A DNA stretch of 64,000 bases. Source: Notolepis coatsorum. Lineage: Eukaryota; Chordata; Actinopteri; Aulopiformes; Paralepididae. Shown in pieces: positions 849-52,185 of this stretch. A model generated the notes under the pieces. The model had not been told where the DNA came from. It searched no databases and was given only the letters and a program-made list of their open reading frames with translations. The stretch covers positions 113,695,474-113,759,473 of the forward strand of contig OZ020594.1 in the NCBI GenBank assembly GCA_963971535.1, read 5' to 3'. Within the stretch, counting starts at the first letter, position 1. Each line of letters opens with the position of its first letter. A program made the translations under genes and the position numbers.

Positions 849-882
849 CTAGACAATTCCGCGCGGGGGAAATTGTGAAAGT

Positions 883-3297
883 GTGGGTGACGCCTGTGCA
901 CCGCCGGCCAACGGGAGAGGGTCTCTCGCGAGTCTCTATGACAAACGGTTCAAAGGATACAAAAAGGGGGCGCGGCCTAAGGATCGGGGGAGTGGTCAAC
1001 ATAGACCAATGAAAGAGGATATCCCTACTGAGTGCAATGACACAACCCGCAAGTCGCATAGCACACTATTACACACTATATCTAGAGAGGCCTTTAACCT
1101 AGAACTGGGGAGCTTGGACTGGTCAGATGAACTCAGTGGTACACAGGTTGAAGAAACATGGCTTGGATTCAAAACCAAATTCACAGCAATACTCAACAAC
1201 ATGGCACCCATAAGAACCACCAGGGTTAAAAATCGCGCTGAGCCATGGATGCACACTGAAATACTGGCCGCTATGAAAACCAGAGACAAAAAATGCTCTG
1301 AACTTCATAAAAGTCAAACAAAGCTTTCCAAAAGCTCAAACAGTGAACTCCAAGCCCACGTGGTTGAACTAAAAATTCAAAGAAACAGACTAAGAAATGA
1401 CGTAAACACCATGATCAGATCCGCAAAAAGAAATTTCATCAACGACAAAACTGAGGAAAACAAAAACAAACCCTGCGAACTTTGGAAATTACTCAATAAT
1501 CAACTAGGCTGCAGTAAAAAACTTAAAGCCAGATTCTCAAACATAAACATAAAGACGGACAACACGCTCATCACAGACAAGCTGGATGTAGCCAATTACT
1601 TAAACATCTTCTTCACAAACATAGCCACAACACTGGTAAACAAACTACCCTCCCACTCAGGGCATTATGGGGTAGAACACATAGTAGAATACTACAAAAA
1701 CCTAGGGGTCCACAAAGATGACTTCAAACTTGAAATGGTAACAACTGATGAGGTACTCAAAAAATTGAGCGCCCTCCAACCTAACAAGGCCACTGGCCAT
1801 GACAACATCCCCTCCAAATTCCTCAGAGACGCAGCAGCCGCCATCACCCCAGTCATCACACACATAATAAACCTCTCTATAAAACAGGGACACGTCCCCA
1901 AGGACTTCAAAATTGCGAGAGTGACCCCTCTGCACAAAAAGGGCAGCAAATTAGACCCAGGCAACTACCGCCCTGTTTCTATTCTTACCTCCATCTCGAA
2001 AGTCATGGAGAAAATAGTCTACGAACAGGTCGAAAAGTACCTGGCGGAAAAAAATCTAATCTACGAATTCCAATCTGGCTTCAGAACGTCCCACTCCACT
2101 GACACATGCCTCCTCTATTTGAACGACCACATCAAACAAGAGGTGGACGCGGGCAAATACTGCGGCATGGTCATGCTGGACCTACAAAAGGCCTTCGACA
2201 CTGTCAATCACTCCATTCTGATGGACAAGCTAAAAGCAATTGGTTTTGATAGCTTATCAGTGAGCTGGATGCAATCCTACCTGGAGGGGAGAGAACAGAT
2301 GGTAGAGGTAAACGGTACTCTATCCCCCCCCCTCACAGTGAGCTGTGGTGTTCCACAAGGAAGCATACTAGGACCACTACTCTTCCTAATTTATGCAAAT
2401 GACATGTCGTCAGCCTGTGACTGCAACTTGTTCCTGTTTGCGGACGACTCAGCCCTGCTGGTCTCTGACAAGAACAAGTTGCAGGTTGAAAAAACCCTCA
2501 GCACGGAACTAGGCAAAATCTGCATATGGCTCGCTGATAACAAACTATCATTACACATGGGCAAAACAGAGTCCATTCTCTTCGGTTCAAATAACAAACT
2601 CAGCAAGACCGACGGCTTCTCAGTTACAGTGGGTGACAATATTGTCACAAGGAAAGACGAAATTACCTACCTGGGTTCCATCCTAGAGGCAAATCTTTCC
2701 TGTGACAAAATGGCATCCAATGTAATAAAAAAAGTCAACCAACGAACTAGATTCTTGTACCGGATCTCCTCTCTGGTAAACAAGAATACCCTGAAGACTC
2801 TGGCAGGAGCACTCATTCAAGGGTACTACGACTATGCGTGCACCTCATGGTACCAAAGCACCTCAAAGGCGCTTAAAACTAAATTACAAACATCACAAAA
2901 CAAACTGGTCAGACTACTACTTGACCTGAACCCCAGAACCCACCTCACCCCTGCCCACTTTGACAACCTAGGATGGCTTAGAGTAGACGACAGAGTACAG
3001 CAACTTGCAATGGGCCTGGTCTACAAGATACACTATACGACCGGGGTACCCATGTACATGTCAAAATACTTCCCAAAGGTCAGTGAATACCACAACCACT
3101 ACACCAGAGGAAGCTCAACAAATCATGTAAAACCCAGATTCGGCTCAAACAAGGGACTAAACACGTTTCGCAATTATGCCACAACAATGTGGAACGCCCT
3201 ACCCAAAGCTGTAAAGGAATGTGAATCACTACCCACATTCAAAACCGCTCTTAAGGAGCACCTACGGGAGGCTGCAATTCGAAACTGGCCACCGTAA
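883..3297 (+). CDS. LINE reverse transcriptase (endonuclease missing)
   Basis: Open frame of 804 residues. Residues about 1-45 derive from the upstream repeat. About 50-330 are linker, with the post-endonuclease motif around EPWMHTEIL. The reverse transcriptase lies at about 340-600: HKKGSKLDPGNYRP near 349-362, LQKAFD at 434-439 with a catalytic Asp, VPQGSILGP from 490, and the FADD box at 519-522. About 610-800 is the C-terminal region with WLRVDDRVQQL and WNALPKAVKE. In the family this enzyme copies its own RNA at a nicked target in the nucleus. Here the apurinic-type endonuclease is gone, so the copy should not be autonomous although the frame is fully open. The frame is shared, in broken form, by the copies at 32098, 34700-36696 and 17601-18113. 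The first ATG is not a native LINE start. Confidence 0.85.
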   Translation: MGDACAPPANGRGSLASLYDKRFKGYKKGARPKDRGSGQHRPMKEDIPTECNDTTRKSHSTLLHTISREAFNLELGSLDWSDELSGTQVEETWLGFKTKFTAILNNMAPIRTTRVKNRAEPWMHTEILAAMKTRDKKCSELHKSQTKLSKSSNSELQAHVVELKIQRNRLRNDVNTMIRSAKRNFINDKTEENKNKPCELWKLLNNQLGCSKKLKARFSNINIKTDNTLITDKLDVANYLNIFFTNIATTLVNKLPSHSGHYGVEHIVEYYKNLGVHKDDFKLEMVTTDEVLKKLSALQPNKATGHDNIPSKFLRDAAAAITPVITHIINLSIKQGHVPKDFKIARVTPLHKKGSKLDPGNYRPVSILTSISKVMEKIVYEQVEKYLAEKNLIYEFQSGFRTSHSTDTCLLYLNDHIKQEVDAGKYCGMVMLDLQKAFDTVNHSILMDKLKAIGFDSLSVSWMQSYLEGREQMVEVNGTLSPPLTVSCGVPQGSILGPLLFLIYANDMSSACDCNLFLFADDSALLVSDKNKLQVEKTLSTELGKICIWLADNKLSLHMGKTESILFGSNNKLSKTDGFSVTVGDNIVTRKDEITYLGSILEANLSCDKMASNVIKKVNQRTRFLYRISSLVNKNTLKTLAGALIQGYYDYACTSWYQSTSKALKTKLQTSQNKLVRLLLDLNPRTHLTPAHFDNLGWLRVDDRVQQLAMGLVYKIHYTTGVPMYMSKYFPKVSEYHNHYTRGSSTNHVKPRFGSNKGLNTFRNYATTMWNALPKAVKECESLPTFKTALKEHLREAAIRNWPP

Positions 3298-3713: not shown

Positions 3714-5459
<1,746 letters not shown>

Positions 5460-5718
5460 CCTCTCTCTCTCTGTTCAATGATTTAAAGTGGCCAAACGTT
5501 ACAATATAAATACTAATTGGATTTTTGGCTGGTAAAAAATCTGCCCGGCTGGTAGTTTTTTTAAATCTACCAGCCAAATGGCTGGTAAGTCAAAAAGTTA
5601 AGTTTGTTCCCTGGGTATATATATTATAATATATATACGCGATGGACGCAGCAGGCGATGTTTGCATACTTCATATATGTGTCTACCTCTTCTTGCTGTC
5701 ATTACATCCATGTATGTG
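5460..5718. other. Spacer with small inverted repeats
   Basis: At 5527-5587 the word gctggta and its complement taccagc alternate, giving a small foldback. An AT palindrome lies near 5618-5638. No gene is supported. Confidence 0.4.
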
Positions 5719-7998: not shown

Positions 7999-9602
<1,604 letters not shown>

Positions 9603-10202
9603 GTGGAGTCATGTCCTGGTGTGTGGAGTCATGCCCTGGTGTGTGGAGTCATGTCCTGGTGTGTGGAGTCATGTCCTGGTGTGTGGAGTCATGTCCTGGT
9701 GTGTGGAGTCATGTCCTGGTGTGTGGAGTCATGTCCTGCTGTGTGGAGTCATGTCCTGCTGTGTGGAGTCATGTCCTGGTGTGTGGAGTCATGTCCTGCT
9801 GTGTGGAGTCATGTCCTGGTGTGTGGAGTCATGTCCTGGTGTGTGGAGTCATGTCCTGCTGTGTGGAGTCATGTCCTGCTGTGTGGAGTCATGTCCTGCT
9901 GTGTGGAGTCATGTCCTGGTGTGTGGAGTCATGTCCTGCTGTGTGAAGTCATGTCCTGGTGTGTGGAGTCATGTCCTGGTGTGTGGAGTCATGTCCTGCT
10001 GTGTGGAGTCATGTCCTGGTGTGTGGAGTCATGTCCTGGTGTGTGGAGTCATGTCCTGCTGTGTGGAGTCATGTCCTGGTGTGTGGAGTCATGTCCTGCT
10101 GTGTGGAGTCATGTCCTGCTGTGTGGAGTCATGTCCTGGTGTGTGGAGTCATGTCCTGCTGTGTGGAGTCATGTCCTGCTGTGTGGAGTCATGTCCTGCT
10201 GT
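9603..10202. repeat. 20-bp minisatellite, 30 units
   Basis: Thirty head-to-tail copies of gtgtggagtcatgtcctgNt, where N is G or C. Units are otherwise almost identical; one has gcc for gtc and one gtgaag. Because 20 is not a multiple of 3 and the unit has no stop, all three forward frames stay open and encode the same cyclic peptide. These frames are artefacts. Confidence 0.97.
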
Positions 10203-10465
10203 GTGGACCTGGCTGTTTCTAGTGTCTGTGTGTCAGGATGTGTGGTATATAGAGAATACCATGATCAGAGTCTGTGGATATGCATGGGTGAGCCCGCCAC
10301 ACCAGGGAGGGGGAGGGGGGACGATGACGACATATTGCAGACAATTTAATCAATTGATCAACTATTCAATACTATTAATACATACATAAATACAGTTGTA
10401 ATCCATTTTACAAACAACAAAAGAACAAAAGGAAAGACACATAATATAATCCCTTTGTTATCTAC
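10203..10465. other. Spacer and LINE 3' UTR
   Basis: Lies directly 3' of the minus-strand LINE stop at about 10466 and is probably its 3' UTR. It has an A-rich section near 10330-10445. Confidence 0.4.
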
Positions 10466-10658
10466 TCCCAGCTTCTGCTACTCATGATCCACCTCTTTAT
10501 AGATGATTTAAAAGTGGAGAAGGGGCTTATGGACTTCAACTCCATTGGTAGGTTATTCCATAGTACTGCTGCTGAATACAGGAATGAGTTTTGGCCCATT
10601 ACTCTGTTGCATCTCACTGGGACGAGGTCTGTAGGGCTCCCCCTAGTGGCGTGTCCGT
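10466..10658 (-). pseudogene. LINE ORF C-terminus, left of LTR insertion
   Basis: Read on the minus strand this encodes the C-terminal tail of an L2-like protein: ATRGSPTDLVPVR, then VLWNNLPMELKSI and FSTFKSSIKRW, then a stop. The matching part of the intact copy is its last ~85 residues (TRGSSTNH...WNALPKAVKE). The upstream half of the same LINE resumes at 17601. The reading frame is cut exactly at the CCGT target duplication of the LTR element. Confidence 0.8.
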
Positions 10659-11014
10659 TGTGGGATATTTGTGGATATCCTGATGAAGAATGTCTCAGTC
10701 AACCGAGGCTTGGATAATAACAAGGTTTATTAACCAAACAGATAGAATACATAGAGAGAATGGCTGAGGCTCTCGCCCCAGGTGATCAGCTGAAATTACC
10801 CAGGTAAGAAGCCCTGATTGTGGTCGGGAGGAGCCCTTTATAGTTCAACAAAGGGGGTGTGTGGTCCCATTTGATAGGTCAGATGGGGGGGGGGGGGGTA
10901 CAGGTTTGGGGACACAGGGGAGGGGGGTGATTATTCCACAGAGAGGGGGGGGGGCACAGGTAAAGGGAACACAGGGGAGGGGGATATATTTACATGAGGA
11001 CATATTATACCACA
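10659..11014 (-). repeat. 3' LTR of the zinc-finger element
   Basis: Direct repeat of 17242-17600, with TATA box at 10836-10842 and AATAAA at 10726-10731 (minus strand). CCGT target duplication is at 10655-10658. Confidence 0.85.
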
Positions 11015-11017
11015 ATA

Positions 11018-11033
11018 CTCACTTTTCTTTCTT
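11018..11033 (-). promoter_or_regulatory. Polypurine tract candidate
   Basis: Minus strand AAGAAAGAAAAGTGAG, three bases from the 3' LTR. This purine run is in the place expected for plus-strand priming. Confidence 0.6.
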
Positions 11034-11034
11034 A

Positions 11035-12640
11035 TAATGTGGGTGAGATTAATGTATAATATACCAGGATTGTTTGGAACAGGTAAAAGTGGGGATAATA
11101 GTTTAAAATAGAATTATTTACATACATGATTAATAGAATTATTTACATACATGATTCATGACATGATCGACTGGACTGCGGTCTGTGTTATTTTGATATC
11201 AGAGATGTGGGAATAGATATCACCCTTTTCTTTTATTAATCGCTCAAAATACCTATATCAATGAGTGGTCCTCATCTCTGATATCAAACAACAATTAACA
11301 TCATCATTAGAAGCTATCGCTGTGCAAATATCTTGGCATACCTTCAGTCGTTCATGTCGTGACTCTGGGGAGCTAATGTGATCGTTGTGCATACAGGCAT
11401 CGTAATAAACCAATTAAATACATGCACTGTCTGTGTGGTCAGAGTGCACAGGGTGAAAAAACAAAATTGTGTTCATAATTATTAGGAATCGGATTTACAC
11501 ATAAGGCTAATGTGTACAAAAACATTTTAACAACTGTTAACCTGGTGGTTAATAAAACTAACATGATTGCTTATGGGAAACTGTTCACAAATATATATAT
11601 ATATTTTTGCACATTTTGTGATGATTCTTGATGAAATTACTTAGGATCCAGTTGTATTTAATCTGAGTTTGAGTGTCACTTTCATCTGTGATTGCCTCAG
11701 CTTTGTTGGTCTTTACTTAGAATCAGGCAATTTTCTCCATTTCTTCTCTATAAATGAGGAGATAAAACGTCTTATGCATCGCTTCTGTATGTAATTCTAG
11801 TGCATATACTATCAATGGTTCACCATACAGGTGCAAAACAACGTTACATGTCCTCTTCTATGAGAGAATAAAACAACTGATTCTTTCTTGTCTGACAATA
11901 CAATTTTGTAACCTAAGTAATTCTAATGTGATGTAATGTGATCATGTGGTCACTTCTTCCTTCAGCAATACATTTTAGCTCATTATTACTAACCATTGTT
12001 AATGCTTTCTCATTGATTTCTTTTCATCACATCCCTAGTTCATCGTTTTGCAGATACATACAATTGTGTGAAAAGTTTCCTGCTTGTGAAGGTATTAATC
12101 TGAATGATGTTGCGTCGTTGTTGACAAGGTGTTCTCTGTCGGTCGTGTGGCAGGGCCAAACAGTAACACATAAAAATTAAATAAATACATACAATAGACA
12201 TTACCTTAGTGGCTAATGTGTCAAAATAAAATTGAAAACCGTTAACCTAGTGGTTAATATAAAAGGTGATTATGATAATCGTTATGCATTGTTCTGTGGT
12301 CAAAACAAACTTGGTGTCTTGGAACAATCCAACTGGTTCTGCCCTGTTTAACAATACCATTTTGCAATGTGACTCTGTGATCATTTCTCATTGTCATTAT
12401 AAAATTACAGTTCTTGTTTGTGAATCTGACAGTTGCTGTGAAGTGTTGATCATCTGTTCTCGGTCGGGGATGTGTCCTTCTGTGTGACCTGCTGTGTGTT
12501 GAACGTATCGTACATTCAGTTGATGTTTCTGTGAGCCTGTCGTGTGGCAGTAAGACAGTCTCATTTGCTATGTGTCTCTTCTTGACGATGCAGTCGGGAA
12601 TATTCACTGGTCGCCGTCCATTCCCTGTCAAGGGTCACTT
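11035..12640 (-). other. 3' noncoding part of zinc-finger LTR element
   Basis: AT-rich, no domain. It contains a 29-bp tandem duplication (11100-11158, word agaattatttacatacatga), a perfect 16-bp inverted repeat (TTTGATATCAGAGATG at 11192-11207 with its complement at 11273-11288), and a diverged duplication in which gttaacctRgtggttaat recurs at about 11537 and 12241. Confidence 0.45.
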
Positions 12641-12649
12641 GTCTGCGCT

Positions 12650-12905
12650 GCTCTCCATCACCACCACATGTCTGCCACTGTGCTCACGCTTGGCCCCCAT
12701 CAGGCCCAGAGACATGGTGGTCAGGGCGTTTTTGAATGTGTTGTGCTGGTTTCGCTGTCCTCTCCTCGTCATTGCGGTACCACTTGATGGAGGGCGAGGG
12801 CCCGCCGGTGTAGTGGCTAGTCAGTAGGACGCTCTTTCTCACACGGATGACAATCTTGTCATGGGAATCCACCTTGATGGTCGGGGACTTCAGTTCCCGT
12901 TTGCA
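12650..12905 (-). pseudogene. Ig-like (I-set type) domain remnant
   Basis: Directly 3' of the zinc fingers on the same strand. One frame reads KSPTIKVDSHDKIVIRV and then PSPSIKWYRNDEE, the strand C tryptophan region of an Ig I-set domain as in titin-like muscle proteins. A second frame continues with NALTTMSLG and then KREHSGRHVVVMES, resembling the late strands where D/H-S/A-G-x-Y is usual. A frame change separates the two, and a stop precedes the second part's end, so it is broken. It abuts the zinc-finger tail with almost no spacer, which suggests one chimeric captured transcript or two captures. Family placement rests on motif memory only. Confidence 0.5.
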
Positions 12906-12923
12906 GGTGATGGGTTTGTTTCT

Positions 12924-13634
12924 TCAGGTGGCGCTTGCGAACGAAACTCTTCCGGCACATGTTGCATTTGTACGCTTCTCTCCCGAGTGGACCCCCCTCT
13001 GGTGCTCCTTCAAGTTAGCCGCGGTTGCAAAGCACTTCGCACACTGTGTGCATCGATGGGGCTTGTCCCCTACTACCCCCACGGCGTGGGTCTTCTGGTG
13101 CTTCTTCAGATGCCTCCTGCGTACAAAGCTCTTCCTACACTGGGTGCACTTGTACGGCTTGTCATCCGAGTGCATCTTCATGTGTTCTCTGAGAGAGATG
13201 GCCGCCGCGAAGCTCTTGCTACACTCGGAGCACTGATGGGGCTTCTCCGGCATCTGGTGAGACTTGAGGTTGAAGGCGTCGATGACGCCCTTGCCGACCA
13301 TCTCGACCCCGGTGGGGGCGTACGCCTTTTCTTTCGTGTGGATTTTCATGTGCTGCTTGAGGCTGGCCTCCACGGCGAAGCTCTCGCCACAGTGGACACA
13401 GATGTACGGGTTGATGTCCTTGTGGATCTCAAAGTGCTGGTGGAGGTCGGCGATGCTGCCAAAGATCTCGCCGCACTCGCTGCACTCCAGGCCGTGGGTC
13501 TCGTGGATCACCATCCCGCTTCGTCTCACTCGTCCTGTCCTCTCACCAATTCGTGATCTGAGGGTGATAAACACTGCCTTAGAAAACTCCTCACATAAAT
13601 GATTCAACGCCTTTCTGCTAAAGTGGAAAATCAT
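12924..13634 (-). CDS. C2H2 zinc-finger protein, sense in LTR element
   Basis: A 236-residue frame with five complete C2H2 fingers: C51-H71, C79-H99, C135-H155, C163-H183 and C195-H216, with spacing C-x2-C-x12-H-x3/4-H. Linkers are irregular (KDINPY, SDDKPY, GDKPHR), and a 35-residue gap separates fingers 2 and 3. A sixth finger begins after GEK220, but the frame shifts at about 12974, so it is read out of phase. Proteins of this family bind DNA or RNA in the nucleus. The ATG at 13634 may not be native: an acceptor-like ...tttagCAG at about 13615 would fit a spliced start from 13975. The region is more GC-rich than the rest of the element, as expected for captured host coding sequence. No KRAB, BTB or SCAN domain is visible. 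Whether it is expressed is unknown. Confidence 0.75.
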   Translation of the reverse strand: MIFHFSRKALNHLCEEFSKAVFITLRSRIGERTGRVRRSGMVIHETHGLECSECGEIFGSIADLHQHFEIHKDINPYICVHCGESFAVEASLKQHMKIHTKEKAYAPTGVEMVGKGVIDAFNLKSHQMPEKPHQCSECSKSFAAAISLREHMKMHSDDKPYKCTQCRKSFVRRRHLKKHQKTHAVGVVGDKPHRCTQCAKCFATAANLKEHQRGVHSGEKRTNATCAGRVSFASAT

Positions 13635-13639
13635 TTTGG

Positions 13640-15390
13640 GATTAATTCAATTCATTGTAAATAAAATCACTTAATTGACAATAGGAAATGCAAACCAATT
13701 GCATTAGCAGTGATCAAATCACTTAATTGACAATAGGAAATGCAAGCCAATTGCATTAGCAGTGATTCCTTACGTCAAGAAGGTCACATTCACTACAATT
13801 TTATCAGCTCTTGTATCTAACTAGATCTACCTAGATCTTACAGCATTAGGCTTTAAATAAAATTGTAAATGAATGGCCAAAGTCTTGAATTAGATAAAAT
13901 AGTCTGTGATGTTAAATTGAAGTTGATCTTACCTCAGGATGCGTTGAGTGTGCCTCAGGATACTTACCTCGCCATGACTTCTCTGGCGTTCTTCACATCT
14001 CAGTGTGGCTCATCATGGCATAGGGGGAAAAAAACATAAAATCTAGGTAGCCAGTTAATTTTTGCATGAAAAACAATCATTCGTTCTGTCATCTAACCCT
14101 AACTAACCTTACTGTCATGCATTTGTCCTAATAAACTAACCTACACTGTAGCACTCAACACTTTGATGACCATTGTTACTCAGCTGATAGAGGTGTGCCT
14201 TGCCTGATGTCCTGTCGTACAGAACCTGTGAGTCGCTTTGGATAAAAGTGTCAGCTAAATGATCAATGTTGTTGATATCTTGTACATTTAGATAATTGTG
14301 CTGCAATTTTGGTGGTTGATAATTTTGCAGTCATGGAAAGTATTAGTTGATAAAAGAATAGTCTAAGGAATAGTCATGCATGTTATTGGTTATAAACAGA
14401 GAATAGGAGGGGATTGTAAATAAAGTTGTTTTCATCATTAATCTTTCATCTCGGGCACTTCTCTAATTCATGTGCCTCTTGAAAATAGATGATGAAAACG
14501 ACTGGTTAGTTATTGTTAGTATGGGAGTTAGGTAGATTTTCATAACTGCAAATTCATCACCGGTGTCTAATTCATGTTAATTAAGTGGTTCTCTGTTGCC
14601 ATCCACCGCCAGGTGAGTTCATCAAGTCTGTGGTCACGAGTGCAGGCATTTGCATTGCTTTGTCTCCTAAGTGCCCACTCTGAAGAAATTTACATGTGGG
14701 TGTTTTGGATGTAGATTTGTTCCAAATGGTCAATCGATTGTCTCTCAGCTCTGCACTGTCTCTCGGTTGACATGCAAATTGTTGGATTTTCTGTCTTTTG
14801 TGATACAATTTGGGTGTAGTCATTCACTGTTTTGCATCTCGCCTCAGAGCCAGATCTGTAAATACAAACACATGTTAATTTTCCACTCTTTTCTAAGACC
14901 ATCTGGCATGGGTTCTCCTTGATTGTCTGTGAGCTTAACAAAACATCAGCTATTTCTCATCCATCCTGTCCTAGGATGTAATGATAGTGTTATCATTTAT
15001 CAATCATATCGCATATGTACACAAGCATCATATGAATGTGGAACCACACATTTTGAATCATGTTTAAAATGTCTTACAATGGAAAGGGCTAGTTATCTTT
15101 CATTGGTTCTTTAGATAAACACATTAACTCAAGTGAATATAACCTAAACATCTTACTTTTAAACATGATCTATGTTGTTTGTGCCCAAGTTTTTTTAACA
15201 TTAAAAGCTTATAAAGCCTAATCTAACGCTGTTTATGTGGACTACAAGGTACGCCCACAGATGTATTATAATTCTGAAACAGACATTGTAATTAGCTTTA
15301 TGTGACTTATAATGTGTAAATTAAAGCAACATAAACACTCAAGTGATCTGAGATAGTTGTAATTTGCTGTAGCTGAGATGATATTTGTGT
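13640..15390 (-). other. Interior of LTR element upstream of the zinc fingers
   Basis: No coding domain was recognised. A 51-bp tandem duplication lies at about 13664-13765. At 13968-13975 the minus strand reads ATGGCGAG followed by GTAAGT, a possible short first coding exon for the zinc-finger frame. A second GTAAGA donor-like site lies about 36 bp further on. The rest is AT-rich and unassigned. Confidence 0.4.
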
Positions 15391-15654
15391 ATGTACAGTT
15401 TCTACGTCAAATGACTCCCTTTTCTTGACTCCTTTTGTATCACAAACAGTACTGAATTTGCAAATCTGGTATGTCATAAATGTATAGTTGTAGCAGTACT
15501 GACTATCTGATGAATTGAAAATGGGGGACCCTGATGTAAACAAGACAAAAGTCTTCCTCTGGTCTGCATCCCCTTAACAATTGTGTGTATTGAGCTGTAC
15601 AGTATTGTACCCATTCTGCAATCTGTTAATAAAGTTTTCAATCAATCAATCAAA
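15391..15654 (+). repeat. L2-like LINE 3' end nested in the LTR element
   Basis: Matches the 3' UTR and tail of the LINE copies at 32995-33260: gtacagtttctacgtcaaat, the atgggggaccctgatgtaaa block, ttaataaagttttc, and a short (AATC)n end. It lies in antisense to the host LTR element, so it inserted later. Confidence 0.85.
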
Positions 15655-17223
15655 GCATCTATATAATGATTTTCATACTCACCGGGGAAAGCTGCAATGT
15701 TCGGTTCGTTTCTCCGGTGGTCTGGGATAATGCAACTCGCATCTCGCCACCGCAGTTCAACACTTTCCAATAGCAGCGCGCACATACATATACAAATAAA
15801 ACATATACTACAAGTGGATTTCACGCACCTACGGCCTTGGGCACATTAAACTTTACGTTCGCCTATGGATAGTTTAATATAAAATCATAGCTTCACGGCG
15901 CGCATAGCGTGACGTCATCGCTCCATGCGACGTTCGTGCGTTCTCATTCGCCTCGGAAATAACGCTTTGCAATTCATACAGTATTTTTCCCACGAGCTCT
16001 CACTAGCCTGGAATTCCTATACCAGCGTTTTGTTACCGAATGAACGCGCCTGTGCATATGTGAAACATAAACAAACTGAAACGATAAAACTATACTTCCC
16101 CAAATGGTTGTTCCCGTGGGCCGGTTCCGGAAATTACTATCCTAATATGTCGCGTGAACTGCACTTCAATGTTATTACCTGAACTTCAATGTTATTCTCT
16201 ATATAACGGTAATAGTCTCTCAATGCTCGGCGCACGCAAATACAAACGAGACTTTAAACAGACAAAACAACAATAATACATATAAGCTAACGTGTGTGTA
16301 TATCTGACTGTATTGGATCGCTGTACGTTTAGTCGGCCAACATCTGTTGCGACAAGGCATTTTTCCCTTGATTTAACTACACATCGTTATTAAAGTCATA
16401 ACGACCGAACCTGACTTCGAAATTTACCAGCGATATATTAGATTATATATACCTTTTAATCATACTCTCGGCATCTTAACCCGCGACTAACGTCCTGTTT
16501 AATGTACTTTCCGCGACTGATGTCCCGTTTAATGTACATTTACGTACTCCCGGGACATCGCGTAATCATGTACTAACTAGGACATCGCGTGATCATCTTC
16601 CCGCTATCTGTATTGATCAATTGGTTAATTTAATCCAAAATACATCGTTTTCAGGAAATGGAAGAGATTGTGAGCTTATTTTAAGGTTGTATCTATGAAT
16701 ATATATCGTTACTCTGTTAAATCTAATTAGATTATAACAGCTTCTCGGTCCTAGCGTCCCGCCTCTTTGCCACAAGAATCATAGAATAGTTTCTAAGAGA
16801 GTCGCGTTTTCCAATGATATCACTCTAATAAGCTCACGTATCTTCCTTTGTTGACAACCTTACTGTGTGCCTTAGCTTTTGGTCGGCTCCGACTCGACCA
16901 GGAATAGCACTTCAACCTTTGTGCCTAAACTTTAGGGACTAGCACATATAACCCATCCTTTCAGAACCGCCTGATAAGGACCCAGGTGCACGCGCGCCCT
17001 GGTAACGATTCTCAATACAGATCAGATATATTAATGCACATTATTTTTACTCAGCCATGATCTCAATATTTGACAACATTCTGTAATGTTCACCTGGCAC
17101 AGAGAAAAGCAGGAAGGTTCTAATTCCTTTCCATACATTTTTGGTCGACCAGTCTATATACTCACTTTTCTCTGTATAGATGAAACGATACAGCATGCCG
17201 GGAGGACGCAAAAAGTCCGTCAC
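15655..17223 (-). other. 5' untranslated region of zinc-finger LTR element
   Basis: No gag-like frame is recognisable. A splice-donor-like AAAAGTGAGTAT occurs at about 17163 on the minus strand, shortly after the PBS. A short duplication (acttcaatgttatt) is seen at about 16162 and 16183. Confidence 0.4.
16480..16600 (-). promoter_or_regulatory. Cluster of GGACAT/CGCG motifs in the leader
   Basis: Two direct copies of a ~25-bp word (cgcgactRaYgtcc followed by gtttaatgtac) are followed by two inverted partners (ggacatcgcgtRatcat). It is an ordered cluster of four related sites in the untranslated 5' part of the element. Function is unknown; it could be a binding-site array or structured RNA. 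Confidence 0.5.
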
Positions 17224-17241
17224 AAGTTCGTAGACGCCAAT
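17224..17241 (-). promoter_or_regulatory. Primer-binding site candidate
   Basis: Immediately inside the 5' LTR, minus strand ATTGGCGTCTACGAAC. Starting with TGG one or two bases after the LTR is typical of a tRNA primer site (complement of CCA). The tRNA identity was not determined. Confidence 0.6.
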
Positions 17242-17600
17242 TGTGGGATATTTGTGGATATCCTGATGAAGAATGTCTCAGTCAACCGAGGCTTGGATAA
17301 TAACAAGGTTTATTAACCAAACAGATAGAATACATAGAGAGAATGGCTGAGGCTCTCGCCCCAGGTGATCAGCTGAAATTACCCAGGTAAGAAGCCCTGA
17401 TTGTGGTCGGGAGGAGCCCTTTATAGTTCAACAAAGGGGGTGTGTGGTCCCATTTGATAGGTCAGATGGGGGGGGGGGGGGGTACAGGTTTGGGGACACA
17501 GGGGAGGGGGGTGATTATTCCACAGAGAGGGGGGGGGGGGCACAGGTAAAGGGAACACAGGGGAGGGGGATATATTTACATGAGGACATATTATACCACA
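17242..17600 (-). repeat. 5' LTR of the zinc-finger element
   Basis: Read on the minus strand: TGTGGTATAAT start, G/C homopolymer-rich U3, TATA box TATAAAG at 17419-17425, AATAAA near 17309-17314, end ATATCCCACA. Near-identical to 10659-11014; the visible differences are mainly in the lengths of G runs, which suggests a fairly recent insertion. Confidence 0.85.
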
Positions 17601-18113
17601 CCGTGTACATCCCTAACCCTGTTAAAATATCCACTGAGGTACAGTATTCCAGAGTATCTTGTGTACCATGCAGAGTTTTAATTGAGAGACCCTCTCCTCA
17701 ACCCTGAGCCACTTGAGGCTGTTAAAATGTGAAATGAAAGGTGAGTCCTGGGTTGGAGTTTTAAAATCAGTCTAACTCATTTGTTCTGAGCTGTCTGTAG
17801 CCTACCTTTCAGTGACACGTCTGTTGGAGTGAGGAGGAGATGCTCCCATTAATCTCCACTACTTGTTTCCTGCCTCTCAGATATGACTCCATCCACCTTA
17901 AGGATATACTGTTAAAACCCATAGCCTTCAGTTTATATAAAAGTATGTTGTGGTTAACGGTGTCGAAGGCTTTTTGTAAATCTAATAAAACCATCCCACC
18001 GAATTTACCTTTGTCCACCTCTGTTCTAATGTAGTCTGTCAGATATAATAAACATGTGTCTGTGGAATGTGATGTTCTAAATCCAGACTGGAGCTCGAAC
18101 AACAGGTTGTTTG
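17601..18113 (-). pseudogene. LINE reverse transcriptase part, right of LTR insertion
   Basis: Minus strand encodes FELQSGFRTSHSTDTC, LLDLQKAFDTVNHN and WMESYLRGRK, followed after a large internal deletion and stops by LKWLRVEERVSQL and VHKILWN. These match residues ~400-480 and ~685-720 of the intact LINE frame at 883-3297. The VPQG and FADD boxes are missing. The chain resumes at 10658 after the LTR insertion. Confidence 0.8.
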
Positions 18114-18164
18114 TAGAGACTGTTGCAGGTCGACCAGCTGCTTGATTTATGCTGTGGCCTGGAG

Positions 18165-18766
18165 GTAGCTGGGCATGCTGAGGCCTGGGAAAAGCCTGGT
18201 GGTAGCTGGGCCACTGCTGAGGCCTGGGCAAAGCCTGGAGGTAGAAGGGCCACTGCTGAGGCCTGGGCAAAGCCTGGAGGTAGCAGGGCCACTGCTGAGG
18301 CCTGGGCAAAGCCTGGAGGTAGCAGGGCCACTGCTGAGGCCTGGGCAAAGCCTGGAGGTAGCAGGGCCACTGCTGAGGCCTGGGCAAAGCCTGGAGGTAG
18401 CAGGGCCACTGCTGAGGCCTGGGCAAAGCCTGGAGGTAGCAGGGCCACTGCTGAGGCCTGGGCAAAGCCTGGAGGTAGCAGGGCATGCTGAGGCCTGGGC
18501 AAAGCCTGGAGGTAGCAGGGCCACTGCTGAGGCCTGGGCAAAGCCTGGAGGTAGCTGGGCCACTGCTGAGGCCTGGGCAAAGCCTGGTGGTAGCTGGGCC
18601 ACTGCTGAGGCCTGGGCAAAGCCTGGAGGTAGCAGGGCCACTGCTGAGGCCTGGGCAAAGCCTGGAGGTAGCAGGGCCACTGCTGAGGCCTGGGCAAAGC
18701 CTGGAGGTAGCAGGGCCACTGCTGATGCCTGGGCAAAGCCTGGAGGTAGCTGGGCTTCTGGAAAAC
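18165..18766. repeat. 39-bp minisatellite, about 15 units
   Basis: Unit ggcctgggcaaagcctggagg followed by tagcagggccactgctga. A few units lack the ccactgctg part. Because 39 is divisible by 3, frames on both strands stay open for hundreds of residues. One minus-strand frame runs in phase into the LINE RT piece, which creates a spurious 342-residue fusion. Confidence 0.95.
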
Positions 18767-50471: not shown

Positions 50472-52074
50472 CCTTATAAAAAGTGAACACTGGAGGATAA
50501 TCAACCATTGTTTCAGTGCATTTAGAAGTTTGCTGGTAACATTCACAGTATAGGATTATGGTAATTTACCAAGACAATACCTTATAAAAAGTGAACACTG
50601 GCTGATGATAACCAACCATTGTTTCAGTGCATTTAGGAGTTTGCTGGTAACATTCACAGTATAGGATTATGGTAATTTACCAAGACAATACCTTATAAAA
50701 AGTGAACACTGGCTGATGATAACCAACCATTGTTTCAGTGCATTTAGAAGTTTGCTGGTAACATTCACAGTATAGGATTATGGTAATTTACCAAGACAAT
50801 ACCTTATAAAAAGTGAACACTGGCTGATGATAACCAACCATTGTGTCAGTGCATTTAGGAGTTTGCTGGTAACATTCACAGTATAGGATTATGGTAATTT
50901 ACCAAGACAATACCTTATAAAAAGTGAACACTGGAGGATAACCAACCATTGTTTCAGTGCATTTAGAAGTTTGCTGGTAACATTCACAGTATAGGATTAT
51001 GGTAATTTACCAAGACAATACCTTATAAAAAGTGAACACTGGAGGATAACCAACCATTGTTTCAGTGCATTTAGAAGTTTGCTGGTAACATTCACAGTAT
51101 AGGATTATGGCAATTTACCAAGACAATACCTTATAAAAAGTGAACACTGGAGGATAACCAACCATTGTTTCAGTGCATTTAGAAGTTTGCTGGTAACATT
51201 CACAGTATAGGATTATGGTAATTTACCAAGACAATACCTTATAAAAAGTGAACACTGGAGGATAACCAACCATTGTTTCAGTGCATTTAGAAGTTTGCTG
51301 GTAACATTCACAGTATAGGATTATGGTAATTTACCAAGACAATACCTTATAAAAAGTGAACACTGGAGGATAACCAACCATTGTTTCAGTGCATTTAGAA
51401 GTTTGCTGGTAACATTCACAGTATAGTATTATGGTAATTTACCAAGACAATACCTTATAAAAAGTGAACACTGGAGGATAACCAACCATTGTTTCAGTGC
51501 ATTTAGAAGTTTGCTGGTAACATTCACAGTATAGGATTATGGCAATTTACCAAGACAATACCTTATAAAAAGTGAACACTGGAGGATAACCAACCATTGT
51601 TTCAGTGCATTTAGAAGTTTGCTGGTAACATTCACAGTATAGGATTATGGTAATTTACCAAGACAATACCTTATAAAAAGTGAACACTGGAGGATAACCA
51701 ACCATTGTTTCAGTGCATTTAGAAGTTTGCTGGTAACATTCACAGTATAGGATTATGGTAATTTACCAAGACAATACCTTATAAAAAGTGAACACTGGAG
51801 GATAACCAACCATTGTTTCAGTGCATTTAGAAGTTTGCTGGTAACATTCACAGTATAGGATTATGGCAATTTACCAAGACAATACCTTATAAAAAGTGAA
51901 CACTGGAGGATAACCAACCATTGTTTCAGTGCATTTAGAAGTTTGCTGGTAACATTCACAGTATAGGATTATGGTAATTTACCAAGACAATACCTTATAA
52001 AAAGTGAACACTGGAGGATAACCAACCATTGTTTCAGTGCATTTAGAAGTTTGCTGGTAACATTCACAGTACAG
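50472..52074. repeat. 108-111-bp satellite, main part, about 15 units
   Basis: Unit contains accattgtttcagtgcattt, gtttgctggtaacattcaca and ttataaaaagtgaacactgg. Two unit types exist: 111 bp with ctgatgat (left) and 108 bp with aggat (right). A TATAAAAAG word occurs in each unit. Ends at a piggyBac transposase scrap. Confidence 0.95.
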
Positions 52075-52185
52075 GCACGTCACATGAACTACAGGGCGTA
52101 TCTTACTTGGTCTCTCGCATCGATGACTGCATTGTCCATTGATAAATGGATGAAGCGCCAGATGATCTGTGGACCAAAAAATATC
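52075..52185 (-). pseudogene. piggyBac transposase fragment, minus strand
   Basis: Minus strand encodes QIIWRFIHLSMDNAVIDARD, then in another frame KIRPVVHV. It matches LIWRFLHFADNTSLEVRD...VRPVVDHV of the transposase at 52689-54367. A second, more diverged copy fused to the last satellite unit. Confidence 0.75.

Follow-up and report, generated by a model that had tools for sequence, protein, structure and literature searches.

The window analyzed here is a 64,000-nucleotide stretch of the Notolepis coatsorum genome (contig OZ020594.1 of assembly GCA_963971535.1). Positions 10659-17600 are occupied by an LTR element that reads on the minus strand, as judged by its PBS-like and PPT-like stretches. 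The 5' LTR (17242..17600, minus strand, 359 bp) contains TATAAA (LTR position 176) and AATAAA (position 287), and the 3' LTR (10659..11014, minus strand) is 356 bp long. The two LTRs have TG...CA ends and show 0 mismatches over 356 aligned bases, with 3 gap positions in poly-G runs. The sequence CCGT stands on both outer sides, at 10655..10658 and at 17601..17604. The PBS-like stretch (17222..17239, minus strand), which begins TGGCGTCTACGAAC and to which no tRNA was matched, lies 2 nt inward of the 5' LTR, and the PPT-like stretch (11015..11040, minus strand), which adjoins the 3' LTR, is partly purine-rich. Neither ARAGORN with the bacterial code nor Rfam with its gathering thresholds gave a hit in the window. 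Both of the priming-site-like stretches are at the expected positions and are conserved between copies. The 28 bases after the 5' LTR were the same as those of the window in 14 of 17 complete copies fetched from the genome and differed at one base in the other three (L011, L019, and L028). The 26 bases before the 3' LTR were identical in 16 of the 17, the exception being L028, for which the script hit a tandem LTR instead.

The element is inserted in a LINE. The right flank (17605..18120, minus strand) aligns with residues 397-498, 670-699, and 691-736 of the LINE protein and the left flank (10468..10654, minus strand) with residues 749-812, and when the flanks are joined at a single CCGT, one LINE frame is continuous across the joint. 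This LINE copy is decayed, with a stop in one piece and pieces in different frames. The paired LTRs, the outer CCGT, the PBS-like and PPT-like sites, and the LINE frame resuming on either side had all been described in the initial annotation, which was made from the letters of the window, and all were confirmed.

The same annotation had described five C2H2 zinc fingers, in the transcriptional direction of the element, as its only recognizable cargo. The five motifs are present in a stop-to-stop frame at 12924..13646 on the minus strand, the sense strand of the element as judged by PBS and PPT, and the best named homologues of this frame are teleost proteins. The captured zinc-finger gene piece (12917..13520, minus strand) has internal deletions relative to fuller copies of the insert. 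It lacks the first part of the insert, the sequence separating two copies of CACCAG, which this second deletion joins, and a single base of the terminal partial finger. The fourth finger in this copy arose from the fusion of two, and the further, partial finger, ended by the insert boundary, follows in another frame after the 1-base loss. The window copy is a deletion derivative of zinc-finger-carrying elements.

The zinc fingers are not the sole recognizable cargo, because a frame (12684..12923, minus strand) in which the family backbone has an Ig-domain fragment and a LINE 3' tail (15525..15654, plus strand) also lie inside the element. Each was present in all 17 of the complete fetched copies. 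When Pfam was applied to six frames of the element family, the Ig fragment, scored in the version of other copies, matched Ig_3 with an E value of 5.2e-06, below the Pfam cut-off, and the top PDB chains for that version were titin and neurofascin. These matches give the Ig assignment modest strength. The initial annotation had named a gag-pol interior in all other copies as an outcome that would speak against a mobile unit. That outcome was not observed. Gag with a complete pol was not found in the window or in the 17 complete copies, for each of which up to four frames of at least 130 amino acids were considered; only pieces of pol were recognized, in 6 of the 17, and a decayed gag could be missed by such a search.

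Searching the 3.42-Gb assembly (4787 contigs) with the LTR plus 386 bp of interior, with 40 of 2630 first-look candidates scored, gave at least 41 matches. Forty of these, the window included, span all 742 bases at 98 to 100% identity. The 20 copies that were fetched were the best scoring rather than a random sample and are biased toward close relatives of the window. Both LTRs fell within the fetched stretch in 17 of the 20 and were not both visible in L014, L020, and L022. Paired TG...CA LTRs with a target-site duplication, the structure that defines an LTR retrotransposon, were found in the window and in 16 of the 17 complete copies; L023 has the LTRs without matching 4-bp flanks. Together with the CCGT of the window there are 17 duplications of 16 kinds, one of which (ATAT, L012) sits in an AT repeat and is little informative. 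The BLASTN-type check proposed earlier therefore gave many copies that share an interior and have different flanking duplications, and the window element is a member of a mobile LTR retrotransposon family. The LTR pairs had 0 or 1 mismatch, gaps aside, in all 18 copies examined (the 17 complete copies and the window), and because the pairs differ so little these copies are young.

The origin of the zinc fingers was sought in the same assembly with the first 168 residues of the homologous protein P0002, and all 106 candidates were scored. The 96 matches comprised two host genes and 94 shorter matches, the window among them; in the count of 94, some may be duplicates made by the assembly, such as a pair on C4619, one unfetched place (C8:68427056, 87% over 30 residues) may be another gene, and inserts that have lost the query part of the gene would escape. 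The two host genes match over the whole query and lie approximately 15 kb apart on C23, with frames of 598 amino acids (L029) and 588 amino acids (L030). The insert of copy L012 corresponds to positions 1745-2579 of L030, with 834 of 835 bases identical, and L029 matches the same insert at 93% and 84% in two pieces. Thus, the finger search that had been suggested for the donor locus led to L030, the donor of the insert. BLAST of a 3414-base stretch of L030 with two elements gave the insert itself, cross matches between fingers, and two short matches of 24 to 30 bases, but no LTR. The donor piece is intronless and internal to the donor protein, whose start and end are absent from the insert. 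That the gene is complete and has homologues in other fish points to transfer from gene to element. Among 25 further fetched inserts, backbone was found on both sides in 23 and on the single side covered in the other 2.

The capture site can be read both empty and filled. The cargo-free copy L061, which has the same local backbone variant as L012, reads GACAGACC/AAACCTATCACC and represents the site prior to capture. The filled L012 reads GACAGACC/GAGATC...GAAGCA/AACCCATCACC. After GACAGACC, the sequence is AAACC in L061, and it is donor and then AACCC in L012. The zinc-finger insert of 835 bp thus sits in an otherwise unbroken backbone, with donor-backbone overlaps of CC at the left joint and CA at the right and no backbone base lost. 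Use of donor bases GACCACGAC at the left joint was considered and rejected, as L061 shows that GACCACGAC is backbone.

Zinc fingers are one of several cargoes in the family. They were found in 7 of the 17 complete copies (L012, L015, L019, L021, L023, L024, and L028) and also in the three incomplete ones (L014, L020, and L022, with only 280 bp in L020), so that zinc-finger copies were seen with both LTRs in only 8 cases, the 7 fetched copies and the window. A Peptidase_A17 piece was present in three complete copies (L011, L016, and L025; 99.5 to 100% alike), another pol piece was present in three (L009, L018, and L027; 99.4 to 100% alike), and four (L010, L013, L017, and L026) had neither zinc-finger nor pol cargo. 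None of five second-tier copies (L057 to L061, 92 to 93% in the 5' region) had zinc-finger or pol cargo in the fetched cargo stretch. In a tree of the approximately 1.2 kb adjoining the 3' LTR (18 rows), the cargo types were not grouped, and 1 of 15 inner branches was strongly supported.

The L011 version of the A17 piece matched PF05380 in Pfam with an E value of 2.2e-49, and the other piece, of 298 amino acids, had no Pfam match. They had 365 and 78 protein-database homologues, respectively, the named ones mostly from fish, and among the 78 were several with RVT_1 and two with Peptidase_A17. The pol pieces are BEL/Pao-like, an assignment that concerns the pieces and not the family. Both lie in the same backbone stretch of approximately 230 bases as the zinc-finger insert. 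The L009 piece lies between two copies of ACAACCA and the L011 piece between two copies of GACC, where it has taken the place of the intervening backbone. An earlier reading of these joints as measured overlaps with the source was withdrawn; what brackets the pieces is short repeats of the backbone.

We consider that these results are best explained by a non-autonomous LTR family that captures transcripts and in which the zinc-finger insert is most likely a passenger, and we give this account as a whole a probability of roughly 0.85. The family would be moved in trans by the proteins of another LTR retrotransposon, possibly of BEL/Pao type, and reverse transcriptase switching templates at short matches would repeatedly take up pieces of other transcripts. 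One such event may have brought 835 bp from the middle of the host C2H2 gene into the backbone in the sense direction of the element. The filled element would then have retrotransposed to approximately ninety sites, acquiring further internal deletions on the way, with the window copy among the deletion derivatives. The mobile family, the donor, the insertion in an otherwise unbroken backbone, the other cargoes, and the recency were observed directly. Template switching is the simplest account of the capture event, and we infer this step together with the helper and an RNA route for the captured piece. Thus, of the earlier proposal that a non-autonomous element had captured a host zinc-finger transcript, capture stands on the many copies, the donor L030, and the cargo-free L061, and passage through a transcript is the probable route.

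It is also conceivable that the insert entered an integrated element at the DNA level, by end joining or by gene conversion with the donor locus, and was retrotransposed afterward. Two-base overlaps at both joints are expected of template switching but are also usual in end joining and could arise by chance, and because the donor piece is intronless, loss of introns provides no test of an RNA route here. However, at least three cargoes lie within approximately 230 bases, and two of them come from retroelement pol, as would be expected rather of RNAs packaged together. Although this reasoning is not a test, by it we regard DNA-level entry as unlikely rather than implausible.

Whether the insert acts is a separate question from how it was acquired. 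The initial annotation had raised the possibility of an accessory gene that could act as a repressor, self-regulator, or decoy. In such a case an LTR-driven protein with up to six fingers would bind donor targets or transposon DNA. A frame of at least 270 amino acids is open at 58 of the 94 places, and the LTR has TATAAA and AATAAA. In a substitution test on 33 inserts (four duplicate loci dropped, distinct changes relative to the donor, first 20 bases omitted, CpG correction), there were 28 synonymous changes, 43 nonsynonymous changes, and 0 stops, compared with 20.9, 48.3, and 1.8 expected. The P values were 0.04 for the synonymous excess and 0.17 for the lack of stops. Since these values treat changes as independent and some changes cluster, the evidence for purifying selection on the zinc-finger frame is weak. 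Recency alone could account for the open frames.

Other observations also weigh against an accessory gene. Frameshifting indels were found in 6 of the 33 inserts (L015, L021, L024, L038, L039, and the window); L040, which has a 308-amino-acid frame, was scored as open since the odd length of its insert is due to trimming, and the odd lengths of L020, L031, L043, and L045 are due to truncation. Shortened inserts of the same length form classes, with a 193-amino-acid frame at 8 places, of which three were fetched and all end at the same donor base, and a 201-amino-acid frame at 7 places, counted from the genome search. This suggests that shortened inserts also moved on. In the window copy, 99 ATGs precede the first ATG of the insert, counted from element position 260, and the insert includes neither terminus of the donor protein. 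The proposal of a repressor, decoy, or other working accessory gene is thus unsupported and in our view very unlikely; a passenger is the likelier status of the insert.

An immobile chance rearrangement, in which recombination trapped host zinc-finger DNA between two LTRs, would agree with the match of the insert to a host gene, the intronless donor piece, and the mosaic backbone. It is nevertheless scarcely credible, given the many dispersed copies with different duplications, the matching 4-bp flanks in 16 of 17, and the LINE that continues when its two flanks are joined.

The preferred reading, capture by a non-autonomous family, has precedents. Bs1 of maize is a non-autonomous LTR element in which pieces of three cellular genes are found. 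The family described here resembles Bs1 in that both are LTR elements that have taken up several gene pieces (in Bs1, of cellular genes, according to the review PMC5408686), and as in Bs1-type capture, a mobile LTR unit contains part of a host gene, and the donor is identified. In contrast to Bs1, the genome is that of a fish, a vertebrate, the donor is almost identical, one cargo is present in approximately ninety copies, and filled and cargo-free elements coexist. Work on LTR-mediated retroposition in metazoans by Tan and colleagues reportedly concerned individual retrocopies, whereas the chimera in N. coatsorum became a multiplying family with differing cargo. The process in that work (Tan et al. 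2016) is template switching between element RNA and cellular mRNA at short matches, in zebrafish too, as related in the review PMC5408686.

LARDs, which in PMC6431247 are described as having DNA between two LTRs instead of coding sequence and as being moved in trans, are similar in structure: LTRs, PBS-like and PPT-like sites, and a long interior without a complete pol are present here, and movement by a helper is likewise presumed. Unlike LARDs, the interior has recognizable pieces of host and BEL/Pao-like genes. Rice and sorghum LTR retrotransposons with captured genes have been reported (PMC3726574); the present family differs in being of a vertebrate and in offering both the empty and the filled site. 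According to PMC6431247, LTR elements are known to capture genes in plants and have occasionally been found to do so in animals. No captured zinc-finger piece in a vertebrate LTR family appeared among the top-ranked open-licence titles and abstract openings, which is weak evidence of absence, and the main text of PMC3118150 mentions neither a host gene nor a zinc finger. The capture process is known though seldom documented, and this family is a clear vertebrate case.

It is a speculative and very doubtful extension that the stretch of approximately 230 bases might be prone to capture and the family a standing engine that makes mobile chimeric genes from host and transposon transcripts, with the zinc-finger chimera translated in the germline and competing with its donor for DNA sites. 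The family is set apart from the known cases by features found together in a vertebrate: it is a young, high-copy, non-autonomous LTR family, its donor is near-identical, its capture site can be seen empty and filled, and several alternative cargoes share one short stretch. Because the donor, the pre- and post-capture sites, the deletion derivatives, and the alternative cargoes are found in a single genome and have hardly diverged, the successive steps are directly readable.

In L028, one of the other genomic copies of the LTR retrotransposon family, the interior is followed (positions 8143-8859) by an LTR, the two bases AT and, immediately after them, a second LTR. This LTR-AT-LTR arrangement resembles the two-LTR junction of reverse transcription. 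The outer flanks of L028 match, with GAAC on either side. Another copy, L026, is 8120 bp long and has about 1.3 kb of additional sequence in its 5' part. The stretch fetched for L012, whose insert matches the donor gene at 834/835 bases, includes 803 N bases; no 5' LTR was seen in that for L020, the copy with 280 bp of zinc-finger cargo, which includes 2869 N bases.

Within the window itself, a LINE at 853-3297 has an uninterrupted stop-to-stop frame of 814 aa with RVT_1 inside it, and long tandem arrays lie at 4737-5470 (period 4), 8003-8455 (period 3), 9603-10207 (period 20), 18157-18755 (period 39), and 50472-52075 (period 108).

The host zinc-finger genes L029 and L030 are adjacent (C23:153.04-153.06 Mb), and both have glutamine runs close to the end. 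The donor, L030, is the one of the two that diverges more from its own fish homologues.
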